Origin: Pedosphaera parvula Ellin514
GTDB lineage: Bacteria > Verrucomicrobiota > Verrucomicrobiia > Limisphaerales > JADJPG01
Length of the DNA: 39,983 bases
NCBI GenBank assembly: GCA_945872975.1
Contig: CAMCCU010000001.1
Span: 1-39,983, forward strand
Direction of reading: 5' to 3'
In this document: positions 27,121 to 39,677 of the stretch, one piece after another
Numbering within the stretch: the stretch's first letter is position 1
How the letters are laid out: each line of letters opens with the position of its first letter
Position numbers and translations under genes: made by a program
The notes under the pieces: generated by a model
What the model was told of the DNA's origin: nothing
The model's database searches: none
The model's input: only the letters and a program-made list of their open reading frames with translations

Positions 27121-27879
27121 TTAGCCTGACATCGTCCAGCGCCCGCTCTTGCGGAACTTGTTCACGAAAGCCAAGTTTTTCATGCCCGTCAGCACGTAGG
27201 TCTTGTCGCCTTGCTGCCAGCTCGCCGTCTTCCACACGCCACATTTCTCGAAGTCAGGCTTGTCAGTTGAGGGAAGCTGCGCCAACTGCGAGCCTTCGAG
27301 CACAAACAAATGCATGTGCTTCGGCCCGTCCGCCAGACAGAGCATCGGAACACGCAAACCATCCGCCTCAACAATCCGGCATCCCAGAAGGCGCATATCA
27401 CGCAACCCGTCCGGCAGGGCGAACTCAGCCGGGACCTGCTTGCTGACGAGCCAGCTTCGAATCTGCCGGACATCAGATGACTCCATGTCGAGGTGCGTAT
27501 TGCCATCCCACGCCTGCTCAATCAGCTCCGCGCGAAAGTCAGCGAACTGAGCCGTCTTGCTCGTCGCCAGCACGCCACCAACAACCGCGAGAAAAACAAC
27601 GCCCGCCGCGACCGCCGCACGCATGCGCCAATCTTGCCAGAGTCCGGGGCGGACAACTTTCCGGCTCGCGAGAATGGCATCCTGCAAGTCCGACGGCACT
27701 GAGATGGTCTTGAGTGCTTCGACAAACTGATTATCGAAGCGGCGCTGGTCATCGAACCATCGTCCCAGGACGGGATCACGTTCGGTCTGGACCAATGCTT
27801 CCACAAAGCGCGGATCGTCCATGTCCGCGCCGCCTGGACGAAAGACTTCCAGCAGTCGTTTGGCTTCCTCGCTTTTCAT
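27121..27879 (-). CDS. Membrane anti-sigma-like partner of the ECF sigma factor
   Basis: 252 residues. A cytoplasmic part (about 1-90) is followed by one TM helix (about 93-106, AAVAAGVVFLAVVGGVL) and a roughly 140-residue extracytoplasmic domain. The N-terminal region has no His-x3-Cys-x2-Cys zinc motif typical of ZAS anti-sigmas. Its ATG overlaps the sigma factor stop (ATGA, 27876-27879), strong context for an anti-sigma role. The extracytoplasmic domain carries two cysteines (DMRLLGCRIVE and DKPDFEKCGVWKT) that could respond to redox. The function is inferred from context. Confidence 0.75.
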   Translation of the reverse strand: MKSEEAKRLLEVFRPGGADMDDPRFVEALVQTERDPVLGRWFDDQRRFDNQFVEALKTISVPSDLQDAILASRKVVRPGLWQDWRMRAAVAAGVVFLAVVGGVLATSKTAQFADFRAELIEQAWDGNTHLDMESSDVRQIRSWLVSKQVPAEFALPDGLRDMRLLGCRIVEADGLRVPMLCLADGPKHMHLFVLEGSQLAQLPSTDKPDFEKCGVWKTASWQQGDKTYVLTGMKNLAFVNKFRKSGRWTMSG

Positions 27880-28418
27880 AACGCAACGGAACTTTTGAGT
27901 TTATCGAACGGAATCAGGTTTCGCGGACGATCCTCCATCAATTGACGAAGCATCGCCCGACCGCGCGAGATCCGGGACATCACCGTTCCAACGGGGATTC
28001 CCTGAATCTCGGCAATCTCAAGGTAAGAGTGTTGTTCGAGATAAAAGAGCGTCAGCGGAACCCGGAAGACCTCCGGAACTTCCTGCAATGCCTGGACTGC
28101 GGCGGCGGCATCCACGCTCTCGCCGGCATTCGGGACGCTTGCAGGCATCTCGCTCACGGTGGCGTCCGCTTCCACGTGGGGGTATCGCGTCTTCCAGCGA
28201 TGCGAATCCACGAACGCCCGGTAAAGAGTCGTGAACAGCCAGGACTTCAGCTTGGCCTTGTCTTGAACCTGATGCGCCTTCCGCCCGAGCTGGGCGAATG
28301 CCTCCTGCGTCAGGTCACGCGCGTCCGCCTCGCGCTGAACCAGGCTGAAGGCAAACCGGTAGAGCGGCTCGTATTGAGCTTTCACAACTTCTTCAAACGT
28401 GGCGTCGTCCAGAATCAT
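27876..28418 (-). CDS. ECF-type sigma-70 factor
   Basis: 180 residues from ATG 28418; the open frame extends far upstream but is non-coding there. Region 2: YEPLYRFAFSLVQREADARD (about 17-36), then LTQEAFAQLGRK and LKSWLFTTLYRAFVDSHR. Region 4: LQEVPEVFRVPLTLFYLEQH (111-130), SYLEIAEIQGIPVGTVMSRI (131-150, the helix-turn-helix), SRGRAMLRQL. It directs RNA polymerase to a regulon not evident here. It is co-transcribed and overlapped by the anti-sigma-like gene, and its promoter should lie between 28419 and 28690. Confidence 0.9.
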   Translation of the reverse strand: MILDDATFEEVVKAQYEPLYRFAFSLVQREADARDLTQEAFAQLGRKAHQVQDKAKLKSWLFTTLYRAFVDSHRWKTRYPHVEADATVSEMPASVPNAGESVDAAAAVQALQEVPEVFRVPLTLFYLEQHSYLEIAEIQGIPVGTVMSRISRGRAMLRQLMEDRPRNLIPFDKLKSSVAL

Positions 28419-28689
28419 GCAACAGGTTTGCGGAGAGTCACCAACTGAACCCGCTTCACGACGCAGCTCCCGCTGGGTCGCTATTGGCTTCGTGCTTCGG
28501 TTCAAATACTGCCATGAACCGTTCCTGCCCGCAATGCACCAACCACTCTCATACATCCGAGTGTGAGACGCTGGAACTGGAGCTTCTATTCCCAGGTGGT
28601 TTTCCAATCCATTCCACCGGCTGAAACGAGATTCCGGCGGCGCAATCCAAGCTTGACCCAAGGCCATCGGAATCGCTACTTTCTGCTCA

Positions 28690-28767
28690 GTGATTAGCAC
28701 TTTCGTACAAGTTACTCTGCTGGTAGTCGTCGTAGTAGGCGGCGCCGCTGGGTCTTGTCGAAGGTAA
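28690..28767 (+). CDS. ilv leader peptide (Leu/Val-rich attenuator ORF)
   Basis: A 25-codon ORF (GTG 28690 to TAA 28765-28767) ends about 85 bases before ilvB. Codons 28717-28737 are Leu-Leu-Val-Val-Val-Val-Val, exactly the amino acids whose scarcity should switch on acetolactate synthase. The sequence then continues GGAAGSCRR-stop. The start codon is uncertain: GTG has no clear Shine-Dalgarno, and the frame is open from 28657. The run of five Val codons directly before an attenuator is the key evidence. Confidence 0.75.
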   Translation: MISTFVQVTLLVVVVVGGAAGSCRR

Positions 28768-28816
28768 GAACCAATTTCGACAACAACCCACGGCTGGAAA
28801 CGGTCGTGGGTTTTTT
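28744..28816 (+). promoter_or_regulatory. ilvB transcription attenuator
   Basis: Terminator: AACCCACG (28785-28792) pairs with CGTGGGTT (28805-28812), followed by a T-run to 28816. The competing antiterminator is GCCGCTGGGT (28744-28753) with ACCCACGGC (28786-28794), nine pairs with one bulged C. A perfect TTGTCGAA/TTCGACAA hairpin (28755-28762 with 28776-28783) lies inside that loop. A ribosome stalled on the Val run leaves the 28744 strand free, so the antiterminator can form; a ribosome at the leader stop (28765) covers it, so the terminator forms. Confidence 0.8.
28785..28816 (+). terminator. Attenuator terminator of ilvB
   Basis: An 8-base stem (28785-28792 with 28805-28812) with a 12-base loop and six T's at 28811-28816. 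It lies about 36 bases before the ilvB ATG. Confidence 0.8.
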
Positions 28817-28852
28817 GTGACCCGTGACCGCCGGCCAAAAACCAAAGACCGT

Positions 28853-30748
28853 ATGAGCAAAACAAACTCGACCGCGAAGCCCAAAAAGACCGCCAAACCC
28901 GCCGCGTCGGCCAAGACCGAAGTCGGCCCGCTGATGTTCGGGCGCGATATCTTCGTCGAAGCCCTCGAACGCGCCGGCGTGGAAGTCATCTTCGCGTATC
29001 CCGGCGGCGCGAGCATGGAAATCCACCAGTCGCTCACGAAGTCGAAGATTCGCACCATCCTGCCCCGCCATGAACAAGGCGGCAGCTTCGCGGCGGAAGG
29101 TTACGCCCGCGCCACCGGCAAGGCCGGCGTGTGCATGGGCACCAGCGGCCCCGGCGCGACGAACCTCGTCACCGCCATCGCGGATGCCTACCTCGATTCT
29201 TGTCCGCTCGTCGCCATCACCGGTCAGGTGAATCAAGCGATGATCGGTCGCGGCGCGTTCCAGGAGACGGACATCATCGGTGTCACCCTGCCGGTGGTGA
29301 AGCACAGCTATCTCATCACGGACATCAACGACATTCCGCGCATCGTGAAGGAGGCGTTCTACATCGCGGAATCAGGTCGCCCCGGCCCCGTCGTCATCGA
29401 TCTCCCAAAGAATCTGCAGCAAGCGAAGGCTCAACCACGCTGGCTCAGTGACGCGGAAATGAAAGCCGGCCTGCCCGGCTATCAGCAGCCGAATTTGCGC
29501 GCAGACGAGGTCGCGCTGAACGAAATTATCGGCCTCATCGAGAAGGCGGAACGCCCCGTTCTTTACTGCGGCGGCGGTATCATCACCAGTGGCGCGGCGG
29601 AGGAATTGAAGAAATTCGCCGAGGCCACGCAGATTCCTGTAACCACCACCATCATGGGCGTGGGCGGGTTCCCGGAGACGCATCCGCTCTCGCTGCGCTG
29701 GCTCGGCATGCACGGCGCAGCCTTCGCGAACTGGGCGGTCAACGGCGAATACAAGCAGCGCAAAGATCCCTCCGAACCGCTCGTGAAACTCAAGGACGGC
29801 GCGGACTTGCTGCTCGCGTTTGGCGTCCGCTTCGATGACCGCGTGACGGGCAAGTTCGAAGAGTTCTGCAAGCACGGCACCATCGTTCATGTGGACATCG
29901 ACGCCTCCGAGATCAACAAGAACAAACGCGCGCACCTGCCAGTCGTCGGCGACATCAAGGATGCCCTCACGCGCTTGAACAAAATGATTGCCCGCCGCGC
30001 CATCACCAAGAAATACGCCGCATGGCACGAACAGGTCGCCGAGTGGAAGAAGAAGGCTCCGTTCCAATACGGCCTCACCCAGGAGATCGCCAACAGCGAT
30101 CACATGAAGGACCACATGAAGGGCCAGGAGGATCAGGTCATCGTCGCGCAATCTGTCATCGAGATGCTTTATGAGATGACCAAGGGCGAGGCCATCATCA
30201 CCACCGGCGTCGGCCAGCACCAGATGTGGGCCGGGCAATGGTACAAATACAAATTTCCGCGTCAGTTCATCACCAGCGCCGGTCTCGGCTCGATGGGCTA
30301 CGGCTTCCCCGCCGCGCTCGGCGCGAAGGTCGCCCGCCCGGACAAGCAGGTCGTGGACATCGATGGCGACGGCTCCTTCCTGATGAACATCCAGGAACTC
30401 GCCACCGCAAATGTCGAGAAGATCGCCGCCAAGGCAATCATCCTGAACAACCAGCACCTCGGCATGGTGGTGCAGTGGGAAGACAACTTCTTCGCCGGCA
30501 ACCGCGGCCACACCTACCTCGGCAACCCCGCAGATCGCTCGCAGATTTATCCTGACTATGTCCGCGTCTGCAATTCCTTCGGCGTTCCCTGCGAGCGCGT
30601 GATGTTCAAGCGCGACCTCAGGGCCGCGATCCAGCGGATGCTCGACTCGAAGACCGCCTACGTCCTCGACGTTGTCACACCTTACAGCGAGCACGTGCTG
30701 CCGTTCATCCCGGCCAACCGAACCGTGGCCGACATGATCTGGAAGTAG
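28853..30748 (+). CDS. ilvB: Acetolactate synthase large subunit
   Basis: 631 residues from ATG 28853, somewhat longer than usual. It condenses pyruvate, with pyruvate or 2-oxobutyrate, in valine, leucine and isoleucine synthesis, using TPP, Mg and FAD. A Lys/Ala-rich tail (1-24) precedes the core GRDIFVEALERAGVEVIFAY, then PGGASMEIHQSLTKS, the TPP-activating Glu in RHEQGGSFAAEGYARATGKA, GTSGPGATNLVTAIADAY and GRGAFQETDIIGV. The TPP/Mg site is DGDGSFLMNIQELAT with the Asn of NNQHLGMV. An insert with DHMKDHMKGQ (about 420-440) also adds length. No ilvN follows; a terminator lies 30 bases on. Regulated by the upstream Val/Leu attenuator. Confidence 0.95.
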   Translation: MSKTNSTAKPKKTAKPAASAKTEVGPLMFGRDIFVEALERAGVEVIFAYPGGASMEIHQSLTKSKIRTILPRHEQGGSFAAEGYARATGKAGVCMGTSGPGATNLVTAIADAYLDSCPLVAITGQVNQAMIGRGAFQETDIIGVTLPVVKHSYLITDINDIPRIVKEAFYIAESGRPGPVVIDLPKNLQQAKAQPRWLSDAEMKAGLPGYQQPNLRADEVALNEIIGLIEKAERPVLYCGGGIITSGAAEELKKFAEATQIPVTTTIMGVGGFPETHPLSLRWLGMHGAAFANWAVNGEYKQRKDPSEPLVKLKDGADLLLAFGVRFDDRVTGKFEEFCKHGTIVHVDIDASEINKNKRAHLPVVGDIKDALTRLNKMIARRAITKKYAAWHEQVAEWKKKAPFQYGLTQEIANSDHMKDHMKGQEDQVIVAQSVIEMLYEMTKGEAIITTGVGQHQMWAGQWYKYKFPRQFITSAGLGSMGYGFPAALGAKVARPDKQVVDIDGDGSFLMNIQELATANVEKIAAKAIILNNQHLGMVVQWEDNFFAGNRGHTYLGNPADRSQIYPDYVRVCNSFGVPCERVMFKRDLRAAIQRMLDSKTAYVLDVVTPYSEHVLPFIPANRTVADMIWK

Positions 30749-37962: not shown

Positions 37963-38312
37963 GGGGGCGTACTGGTTTCGACCATGAAGATGCGCCAGAG
38001 GCGGCATGCCGAGGATGGTTCGTGGGCCTCGTAAATCATCGAACCAAAAAATAAAAGCTAACGAAGAATTGGCTCTCGCGGCCTAAGGCCACGACGTTCT
38101 CACCGCATATCTGCTCAGGTGAAGAACGCTATAGCAGGTTAGGTGAAGTGCGGAGACAGCGCGTATTTCACTGAAACTATTTCATGCTGGCTAAGCAGCA
38201 GGACTCGAGTTCGGGCGCCATCCTGTAGCCGACAACATTTCCCGAACTAAGCATGTAGTCGCGGCTGGTTCTTCTGCTTGGGACGCGGGTTCAATTCCCG
38301 CCGCCTCCACCA
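37963..38312 (+). ncRNA. ssrA: Transfer-messenger RNA (tmRNA)
   Basis: About 350 nt. The 5' end GGGGGCG (37963-37969) pairs with CGCCTCC (38302-38308) to form the 7-bp acceptor stem with one G-U pair; A309 and encoded CCA (38310-38312) follow. The D-loop-like TACTGGTTTCGAC and the T-arm CGGGTTCAATTCCCG are characteristic. The mRNA-like part encodes the tag GCT-AAC-GAA-GAA-TTG-GCT-CTC-GCG-GCC-TAA (38057-38086): ANEELALAA, with the resume codon at about nt 95. The tag ends in the usual ALAA degron. It rescues stalled ribosomes together with SmpB. The remaining sequence contains pseudoknot-like complementary stretches. Confidence 0.95.
38290..38312 (+). other. Probable attachment site at the tmRNA 3' end
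   Basis: The T-arm, acceptor end and CCA of ssrA (38290-38312) are intact, and an integrase gene begins within about 105 bases in the same direction. Many island integrases of this type target the 3' end of ssrA and restore it on insertion. The partner repeat (attR) should lie outside the window; I find no second copy in 38313-39983. Confidence 0.5.
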
Positions 38313-38417
38313 CTTTTTGCCAATTAAATGGCACTAAGTTGGGGCCGAGGTGAAAATGTTGGCAGTTTTTGGCAGCTTGATCTTGCTTTCCCCTGCCCTT
38401 TTCGGCACCTTGGGGAC

Positions 38418-39677
38418 GTGCCAAACCCCATCGACCACCCAGAAGACAGCGGCATCCTTCCCGCCATCGTCATCACCAAAGCCGACAACGGGCTGTCCTA
38501 TCAGGTGGTGGTCCCCGCCAAGCTCACGGCAGGCAAAGGGCGCATCCGAAAACAGCATTACACCCTGGTCGAAGCTCAGGCTTGGGCGCGTGAACAGAGC
38601 AGGCTTCTTGAACGCGGCACCGATTACCTCGCCCTGAACGACAAGAGTCGGGCGCAAGCCGTCTCGGCATTCCATCAGGCACACGAAGCGAGGCAGTGCC
38701 TCACCACGCTCGTCACCAATGCTCTCGCCGCCGTGAAGCTGCTGGGGACGCCAGACCTGCTGGTCGAGGCCGCGCTGTTTTATCAGGCACGCAAGGCCAA
38801 CGTGGTGGCAATGCCCGTAGTGGACGCCATCGAACAGCTTCTAGCTGAGAAGGCGCAGGATGGTTTGAGCTTCGTTCATCTGAAGGACCTCCGCCTCCGT
38901 CTCGCGTGTTTCACCAATAAGTTCGGCGTGGTGAACGTCGGCGACCTCGACGCCCCCTCCATTGACGCATGGCTGCGCGGTCTGGATGTGGGAAAGCGCA
39001 GCCGCATCAACTACCGGCGCGTCGTGGTGGGCCTTCTCAAATTCTGTGAACGTCGTGGCTGGCTGGCCCGTGGTGTCATCGACGCCCACGCCATCACGAC
39101 GCCCAAGGTGAAATCCGCTGGCACCATCGCTATCTTCGCGCCTGAGCAGCTCCAGACGCTGCTGGGGCATAGCTGTGACAAGCTGCGGCCCTACCTCATC
39201 CTTGGCGGTCTGTGCGGTCTTCGGACGGCGGAGACGCTGCGCCTAGACTGGCAGGCCATCGACTTCAAGAGGAACACCGTCACCATCTCCGCAGAGAACG
39301 CGAAGACCGCTTCACGGCGCATAGTCCCCTTGTGCGAGGCTGCACGGCAATGGCTGCTTCCGTTGCGCAGAGAGTCGGGAAAGGTTCTGAACTACCACCA
39401 CGTCGGCAAGGAGATCATCCGCCTGTTGAAAGAGATCAACAAGACCGCCAAGACGCCGCTGGAGTGGAGCAACAATGCGCTCCGCCATAGCTATATCTCC
39501 TACCGCACTTCCGCCGTGCAGGACGTGGCGAAAGTCGCGCTCGAAGCTGGCAATTCACCCGCGATGATCTTCAAGAACTACCGCGAACTTGTCACCGATG
39601 AAGCCGCCGCTGCGTGGTTCAACGTGAAGCCAGCCACGCCCGCCGAGAACATCGTCGCATCGGGCGACGGGAGCTGA
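38418..39677 (+). CDS. Tyrosine-type site-specific recombinase (integrase)
   Basis: 419 residues from GTG 38418 (GGGGAC just upstream); the frame is open to ATG 38328, but the extra 30 residues look non-coding. An N-terminal arm-binding part and SAM-like core-binding region (about 140-225) precede the catalytic domain. Catalytic residues as I align them: R269 (GLCGLRTAETLRL), K296 (ENAKTASRR), R356 (NNALRHSYISY), and Y388 (FKNYRELV). The His before LRH is Asn here (N353) and the second His/Trp is Asn (N379, AGNSPAMI). Variants with these changes are common in IS/island recombinases of related bacteria. Position next to ssrA supports island integration. Confidence 0.88.
   Translation: MPNPIDHPEDSGILPAIVITKADNGLSYQVVVPAKLTAGKGRIRKQHYTLVEAQAWAREQSRLLERGTDYLALNDKSRAQAVSAFHQAHEARQCLTTLVTNALAAVKLLGTPDLLVEAALFYQARKANVVAMPVVDAIEQLLAEKAQDGLSFVHLKDLRLRLACFTNKFGVVNVGDLDAPSIDAWLRGLDVGKRSRINYRRVVVGLLKFCERRGWLARGVIDAHAITTPKVKSAGTIAIFAPEQLQTLLGHSCDKLRPYLILGGLCGLRTAETLRLDWQAIDFKRNTVTISAENAKTASRRIVPLCEAARQWLLPLRRESGKVLNYHHVGKEIIRLLKEINKTAKTPLEWSNNALRHSYISYRTSAVQDVAKVALEAGNSPAMIFKNYRELVTDEAAAAWFNVKPATPAENIVASGDGS

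Follow-up and report, generated by a model that had tools for sequence, protein, structure and literature searches.

The short leader upstream of ilvB raises the question of whether the transcription of this gene is controlled by a ribosome translating a leader peptide and, if so, which amino acid is sensed. The window, which is the whole stretch of 39,983 nucleotides analysed, has a GC content of about 60% and contains the gene in question on its plus strand:

28853..30748, plus strand: ilvB, the controlled gene, encoding the acetolactate synthase large subunit (631 aa; Pfam TPP_enzyme_N/M/C)

ilvB is apparently monocistronic, with the next gene on the minus strand. The gene upstream of ilvB is sigma-factor-like and divergent, with a start near 28418 on the other strand, so the leader, of about 130 nt between this gene and ilvB, is the only plus-strand gene that a terminator located there could serve. 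The region 27121-28418 of the window contains the sigma-factor-like gene and a second gene overlapping its end, both divergent from ilvB, which may constitute a sigma/anti-sigma pair. At the far end of the window, the region 37963-39677 shows a tmRNA gene with an integrase-like gene (38328-39677, by eye) immediately behind it, as is usual where an integrative element sits at ssrA.

The reading that best fits the leader, with a probability of about 93%, is a ribosome-mediated transcription attenuator which senses charged tRNA-Val and controls ilvB. Its elements are the following:

28690..28767, plus strand: leader ORF of 25 codons with a GTG start, translation (M)ISTFVQVTLLVVVVVGGAAGSCRR, stop TAA, conserved order-wide
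28699..28717, plus strand: region 1, the 5' side of the 1:2 stem, with its partner at 28750-28765 (MFE fold and covariation)
28723..28737, plus strand: regulatory codons GTA GTC GTC GTA GTA, five Val (shuffle test and Val enrichment in 135 leaders)
28744..28762, plus strand: region 2, the 5' arm of the antiterminator, within the ORF and encoding AAGSCR (fold and covariation)
28776..28794, plus strand: region 3, shared by the antiterminator, as its 3' arm, and the terminator, as its 5' arm (fold and covariation)
28785..28816, plus strand: intrinsic terminator with stem 28785-28796/28801-28812, GAAA loop and T run 28811-28816 (terminator scan; pairing in 135 relatives)

Translation confirms the 25-codon ORF that the earlier note had described at 28690-28767, in which Leu-Leu precedes a run of five Val codons. 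A Val run of this length or longer, in any plus-strand frame, appears in 1 of 5,000 dinucleotide shuffles of 28419-28852. The terminator, which had also been proposed, is found by both scan and fold: the stem with the GAAA loop and T run, which reaches 28816, is the top terminator-like site of the scan, and the stretch 28765-28820 shows a folding z of -3.9, with -4.6 for the entire leader. The antiterminator pairing 28744-28753/28786-28794 is present as claimed, but it is only the lower half of one longer hairpin in the fold of 28740-28800 (-26.1 kcal/mol, z = -4.2). The upper half of this hairpin, 28755-28762/28776-28783, is what had been taken for a separate 8-base pausing hairpin. Relative to the consensus, the 2:3 stem of the window shows a bulge and mismatches. 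Region 2 ends immediately 5' of the leader stop codon (28765), and the whole-leader MFE shows a competing 1:2 stem inside the ORF, 28699-28717 with 28750-28765. Since the 1:2, 2:3 and 3:4 stems are all present, regions 1-4 of a classical trp/his-type attenuator are complete; the attenuator had been called complete on first reading, which holds for its regions, although the 1:2 stem and the following promoter-like pair had been overlooked:

28653..28682, plus strand: promoter-like pair, -35 TTGACC (28653-28658) and -10 TACTTT (28677-28682), conserved in relatives

In the window, this pair shows a spacer of 18 nt and lies 7 nt, counted from the -10, before the leader start codon. No promoter resulted from a simple sigma-70 scan, since the -10 TACTTT scores below its threshold; the conserved pair came to light when the relatives were aligned on the start codon. 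It is present in 117 of 133 leaders, mostly with 6-11 nt between the -10 and the start codon. In leaders aligned there, TTGAC has its maximum 36-39 nt upstream of this codon, with almost no occurrences in a control stretch taken downstream, and the end of the TAnnnT element is most often 7-10 nt upstream of the start codon. This spacing places the predicted transcription start no more than about 3 nt from the first codon of the leader. The mRNA would thus be leaderless, and translation of the leader would not rely on a Shine-Dalgarno sequence.

With transcription starting at the leader start codon, the ribosome would begin at the 5' end of the RNA. When valine is sufficient, it would read through the Val run as far as the stop codon at 28765 and mask region 2, leaving region 3 to pair with region 4, and RNA polymerase would terminate before ilvB. 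When Val-tRNA is short, the ribosome would stall on the Val run, covering region 1 and freeing region 2; the 2:3 stem would then form before region 4 is made, block the terminator and allow the transcription of ilvB. The earlier note had suggested folding the leader with and without a ribosome footprint, and the outcome agrees with these steps. A 30-nt footprint was masked in 134 leaders and the pairing was computed in the transcript up to region 3: the 2:3 stem forms in 93% of them when the A site holds the first Val codon of the run and in 0% when it holds the stop codon; in the latter case the terminator forms in 99% of leaders in the full transcript. Without a ribosome, a transcript reaching the end of region 3 favours 2:3 in 60% of the leaders (0.88 for the copy in the window), a mixed result by which an untranslated leader may or may not terminate; the 1:2 stem is weaker and is not dominant in this no-ribosome model. 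In the model, then, the position of the ribosome decides between the antiterminator and terminator folds. Actual termination and its response to valine are what we infer.

The conservation of these elements was followed by searching the ilvB protein in 97 genomes of the same order and in named genomes. The guess that the DNA comes from Verrucomicrobiota is right: the named relatives belong to Verrucomicrobia subdivision 3/Limisphaerales, with titles that include Verrucomicrobia subdivision 3, Pedosphaera and Limisphaerales. Orthologues of ilvB are present in 87 of the 97 same-order genomes (protein search, E <= 1e-100), and 86 same-order loci were examined, of which 85 are readable and one (L077) is cut by a contig end. 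By the earlier note's own criterion, relatives lacking both the Val run and the alternative stems would have refuted its reading, which did not prove to be the case: the terminator upstream of ilvB is kept in 83 of the 85 readable Limisphaerales loci, nearly all with an in-frame Val-run ORF. Two same-order genomes show an ilvB without a leader or terminator of this type (L072 in G071 and L083 in G032). The alignment contains 135 distinct leaders, 134 of them with an in-frame ORF which runs through the Val codons and ends just past region 2. Leader length in the order is usually 22-28 codons, typical peptides being MKQLALQVVPLVVVVVGDAAGACRA and MLKNVSQAVILVVVVVSDAVGAC, and the C-terminus is conserved order-wide, like DAxGxC(R). 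Near the ilvB leader of one relative (G022), an Acido-Lenti-1 RNA (RF01687, 45.7 bits) is located at L046:903-949.

A conserved C-terminus could mean that the locus is a plain terminator next to a small protein gene, whose DAVGACR tail belongs to a functional peptide, with no coupling between them. This tail is indeed conserved as amino acids, but its codons form region 2 and change together with region 3, and 29 leaders end at or about the Cys codon, losing the Arg and keeping the pairing, which makes an uncoupled functional peptide very improbable. The consensus sequences of region 2, GCCGTTGGTGCTTGTCGA, and region 3, TCGACAAGAACCCACGGC, pair almost throughout. The covariance comparison of the ilvB leaders of relatives, proposed earlier as a check, shows that all three alternative stems covary. 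In the 135 leaders, 67 cells of the 2:3 stem are changed on both sides against 26 in shuffles, the 1:2 stem shows 68 double-change cells against 38, and the 3:4 terminator stem shows 98.1% of cells paired and 10 double changes against 0.6; since shared ancestry can inflate such a comparison with shuffles, safer evidence comes from the slid controls, with far less pairing than the 2:3, 1:2 or 3:4 stems, and from the multiple pair types, as in columns 97/132 of the 2:3 stem, where C-G (60) stands against U-A (35). Region 3 is common to antiterminator and terminator and both stems show compensatory changes, so that the two pairings are mutually exclusive, as had been claimed.

Regarding the amino acid sensed, the 12 codons before region 2 contain 43% Val, 10% Leu, 1.7% Ile and 2.5% Thr in the 135 leaders. 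The attenuator reading of the earlier note is supported, with the correction that the signal is chiefly valine. Attenuation could also be real and respond to leucine or to branched-chain amino acids in general, or act through Rho or translation coupling instead of intrinsic termination. The Leu-Leu before the Val run in the window and the 10% Leu of the order are in line with the former, and experiments at ilvB of Streptomyces did not fit classical attenuation (PMC1262725). These variants are nevertheless unlikely: Val far exceeds Ile, leuA has a Leu leader of its own, and a strong terminator stem, with 98% of cells paired and a T run, speaks against Rho or coupling.

The other leaders of the same genome bear on the valine-sensing attenuator. 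Its leuA, unlinked to ilvB (G000, contig 151), shows a Leu-run leader, MNLNINTLLLTSALLLRSAAGGC and a stop, with a terminator behind it. In the order, Leu-run leaders, often ending in AAVGF or similar, precede leuA at 26 or more of 30 loci. Its ilvN, also unlinked to ilvB, shows a Leu/Val-run leader, MNLPDSLLLVVRVVVVD and a stop, with a terminator, and in several relatives ilvN likewise lies behind a short Val leader. The leuA and ilvN leader ORFs and terminators of G000 are located in contig 151 (L205, L294) and contig 389 (L293), each accompanied by a promoter-like pair at a distance of 7-8 nt upstream of the start codon. The regulatory codon thus appears to follow the pathway of the downstream gene, and the leuA and ilvN leaders would represent a natural specificity control.

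The Val codons themselves are unevenly chosen. The 12 codons before region 2 contain 694 Val codons in the leaders (GTA 283, GTC 274, GTT 99, GTG 38), whereas ilvB at the same loci contains 3,949 (GTA 53, GTC 1,530, GTT 285, GTG 2,081): GTA amounts to 41% of Val codons in leaders and 1.3% in ilvB, and GTG is avoided in leaders. In the genes of the window, GTA represents 2.4% of Val codons. In G022, a fairly complete relative, tRNA-Val is represented once each for UAC, CAC and GAC, and therefore, by ordinary wobble rules, GTA has one reader (the UAC tRNA) and GTG two. It is a reasonable reading of these counts that leader codon choice may be tuned to a tRNA isoacceptor; alternatively, the GTA enrichment could result from avoiding GUG pairing with the CCCAC of region 3. 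A wider proposal, which we put forward tentatively and at somewhat less than even odds, is an order-wide branched-chain regulon of leaderless attenuators in Limisphaerales, where a separate leader would precede each of the unlinked ilvB, ilvN and leuA, its codons selected according to the gene and the tRNA isoacceptor (GTA and GTC, with GTG avoided), so that the charging of particular isoacceptors would be measured and not just the valine level.

Attenuators of the trp, his and leu type, and that of E. coli ilvBN (ivbL), show a leader ORF with cognate codons and the alternative stems 1:2, 2:3 and 3:4. The verrucomicrobial leader shares both features with ivbL, as well as a stop codon placed so that the terminating ribosome masks region 2. 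It differs from ivbL in having no Rfam leader match, a predicted leaderless start, a conserved C-terminal peptide and Val codons skewed to GTA/GTC, and ilvB stands alone, with ilvN elsewhere behind its own leader. The mechanism of the trp/his/leu type is treated in PMC1183508, and published cases at ilvB include attenuators of Actinobacteria as well as the ilvB-OMG and Leptospira ilvB motifs. The ilvB-II motif, described only in Corynebacterium, precedes the ilvBNC operon and encodes a 15-residue peptide; it resembles the present leader in showing a branched-chain uORF, a terminator and an antiterminator before ilvB (PMC10272879; PMC11857589), but here, by description, ilvB is alone and the leader is usually of 22-28 codons. 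The leader peptide of C. glutamicum is made without a ribosome binding site, according to Morbach 2000 as cited in PMC4046766. The ilvB-OMG motif (41 representatives, various phyla; PMC10272879) likewise places a short ORF with many branched-chain codons before ilvB and is a proposed attenuator; compared by description, it is rich in branched-chain amino acids and Thr, against 2.5% Thr in the verrucomicrobial leader. Closest in its start are leuL, ilvL and trpL of Streptomyces lividans, attenuator ORFs without a 5' UTR behind TTGACn/TAnnnT promoters, which belong to another phylum, show other leader sequences and have mapped start sites (PMC8079986), whereas those described here are predicted.

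The scan with Rfam (4227 models) shows no leader-family match at gathering score in the window leader, and in 20 related loci nothing except one Acido-Lenti-1 match away from the leader. At E = 10, the best leader match is His_leader with 20.8 bits (cut-off 49), and cmscan gives no ilvB-OMG match up to the same E, although Rfam 15 may not include this motif. These searches bear on another explanation, in which the terminator would answer to a riboswitch, for example of the ppGpp class that precedes ilvB in some bacteria (PMC10272879), or to a T-box, with no role for the ORF. The leader does have a terminator/antiterminator pair, as such an element would, but it shows no match to the T-box or ppGpp covariance models of Rfam, the element of about 130 nt is almost all ORF and hairpins, and an aptamer explains neither the in-frame Val run of ilvB nor the Leu run of leuA. 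The riboswitch or T-box was rejected on the missing covariance-model match and the unaccounted codon runs, and is barely conceivable.

For the valine attenuator, then, the mechanism is known and the leader sequence family is, as a well-supported reading of the sequences, new. The earlier note's remark that such leaders are little described in Verrucomicrobiota agrees with the literature covered, which is incomplete and in which no paper joins Verrucomicrobia with amino-acid leader-peptide attenuation; the phylum goes unmentioned in the main text of Naville and Gautheret 2010. A covariance model of the leader finds one copy in its own genome and a copy in nearly every ilvB-bearing genome of the order in the class sample. 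Beyond the order its matches are mostly weak, in 14 genomes of other orders (class sample) and four of other classes (phylum sample). Several of these, such as L191, L193 and L202, are in or near unrelated genes and look like chance, but L183, L192 and L194 are Val-run ilvB leaders in other orders or classes, so ilvB attenuation may predate the order. Further matches, in six genomes of other orders of the class (L184, L185, L186, L188, L190, L197), lie before a Methyltransf_11 gene encoding a class I SAM-dependent methyltransferase, where a terminator and a leader ORF rich in Val closely resemble those of ilvB.

The finding extends ribosome-mediated attenuation, well conserved, to Verrucomicrobiota, in the form of a covariation-supported RNA family of about 135 members with no Rfam match, and the same genome contains a built-in control, Val at ilvB and Leu at leuA. 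Judging from the promoter spacing, leaderless translation may go hand in hand with attenuation here, as in Actinobacteria, and with GTA so strongly enriched, the question of which tRNA isoacceptor is sensed by an attenuator becomes testable in a little-studied phylum.
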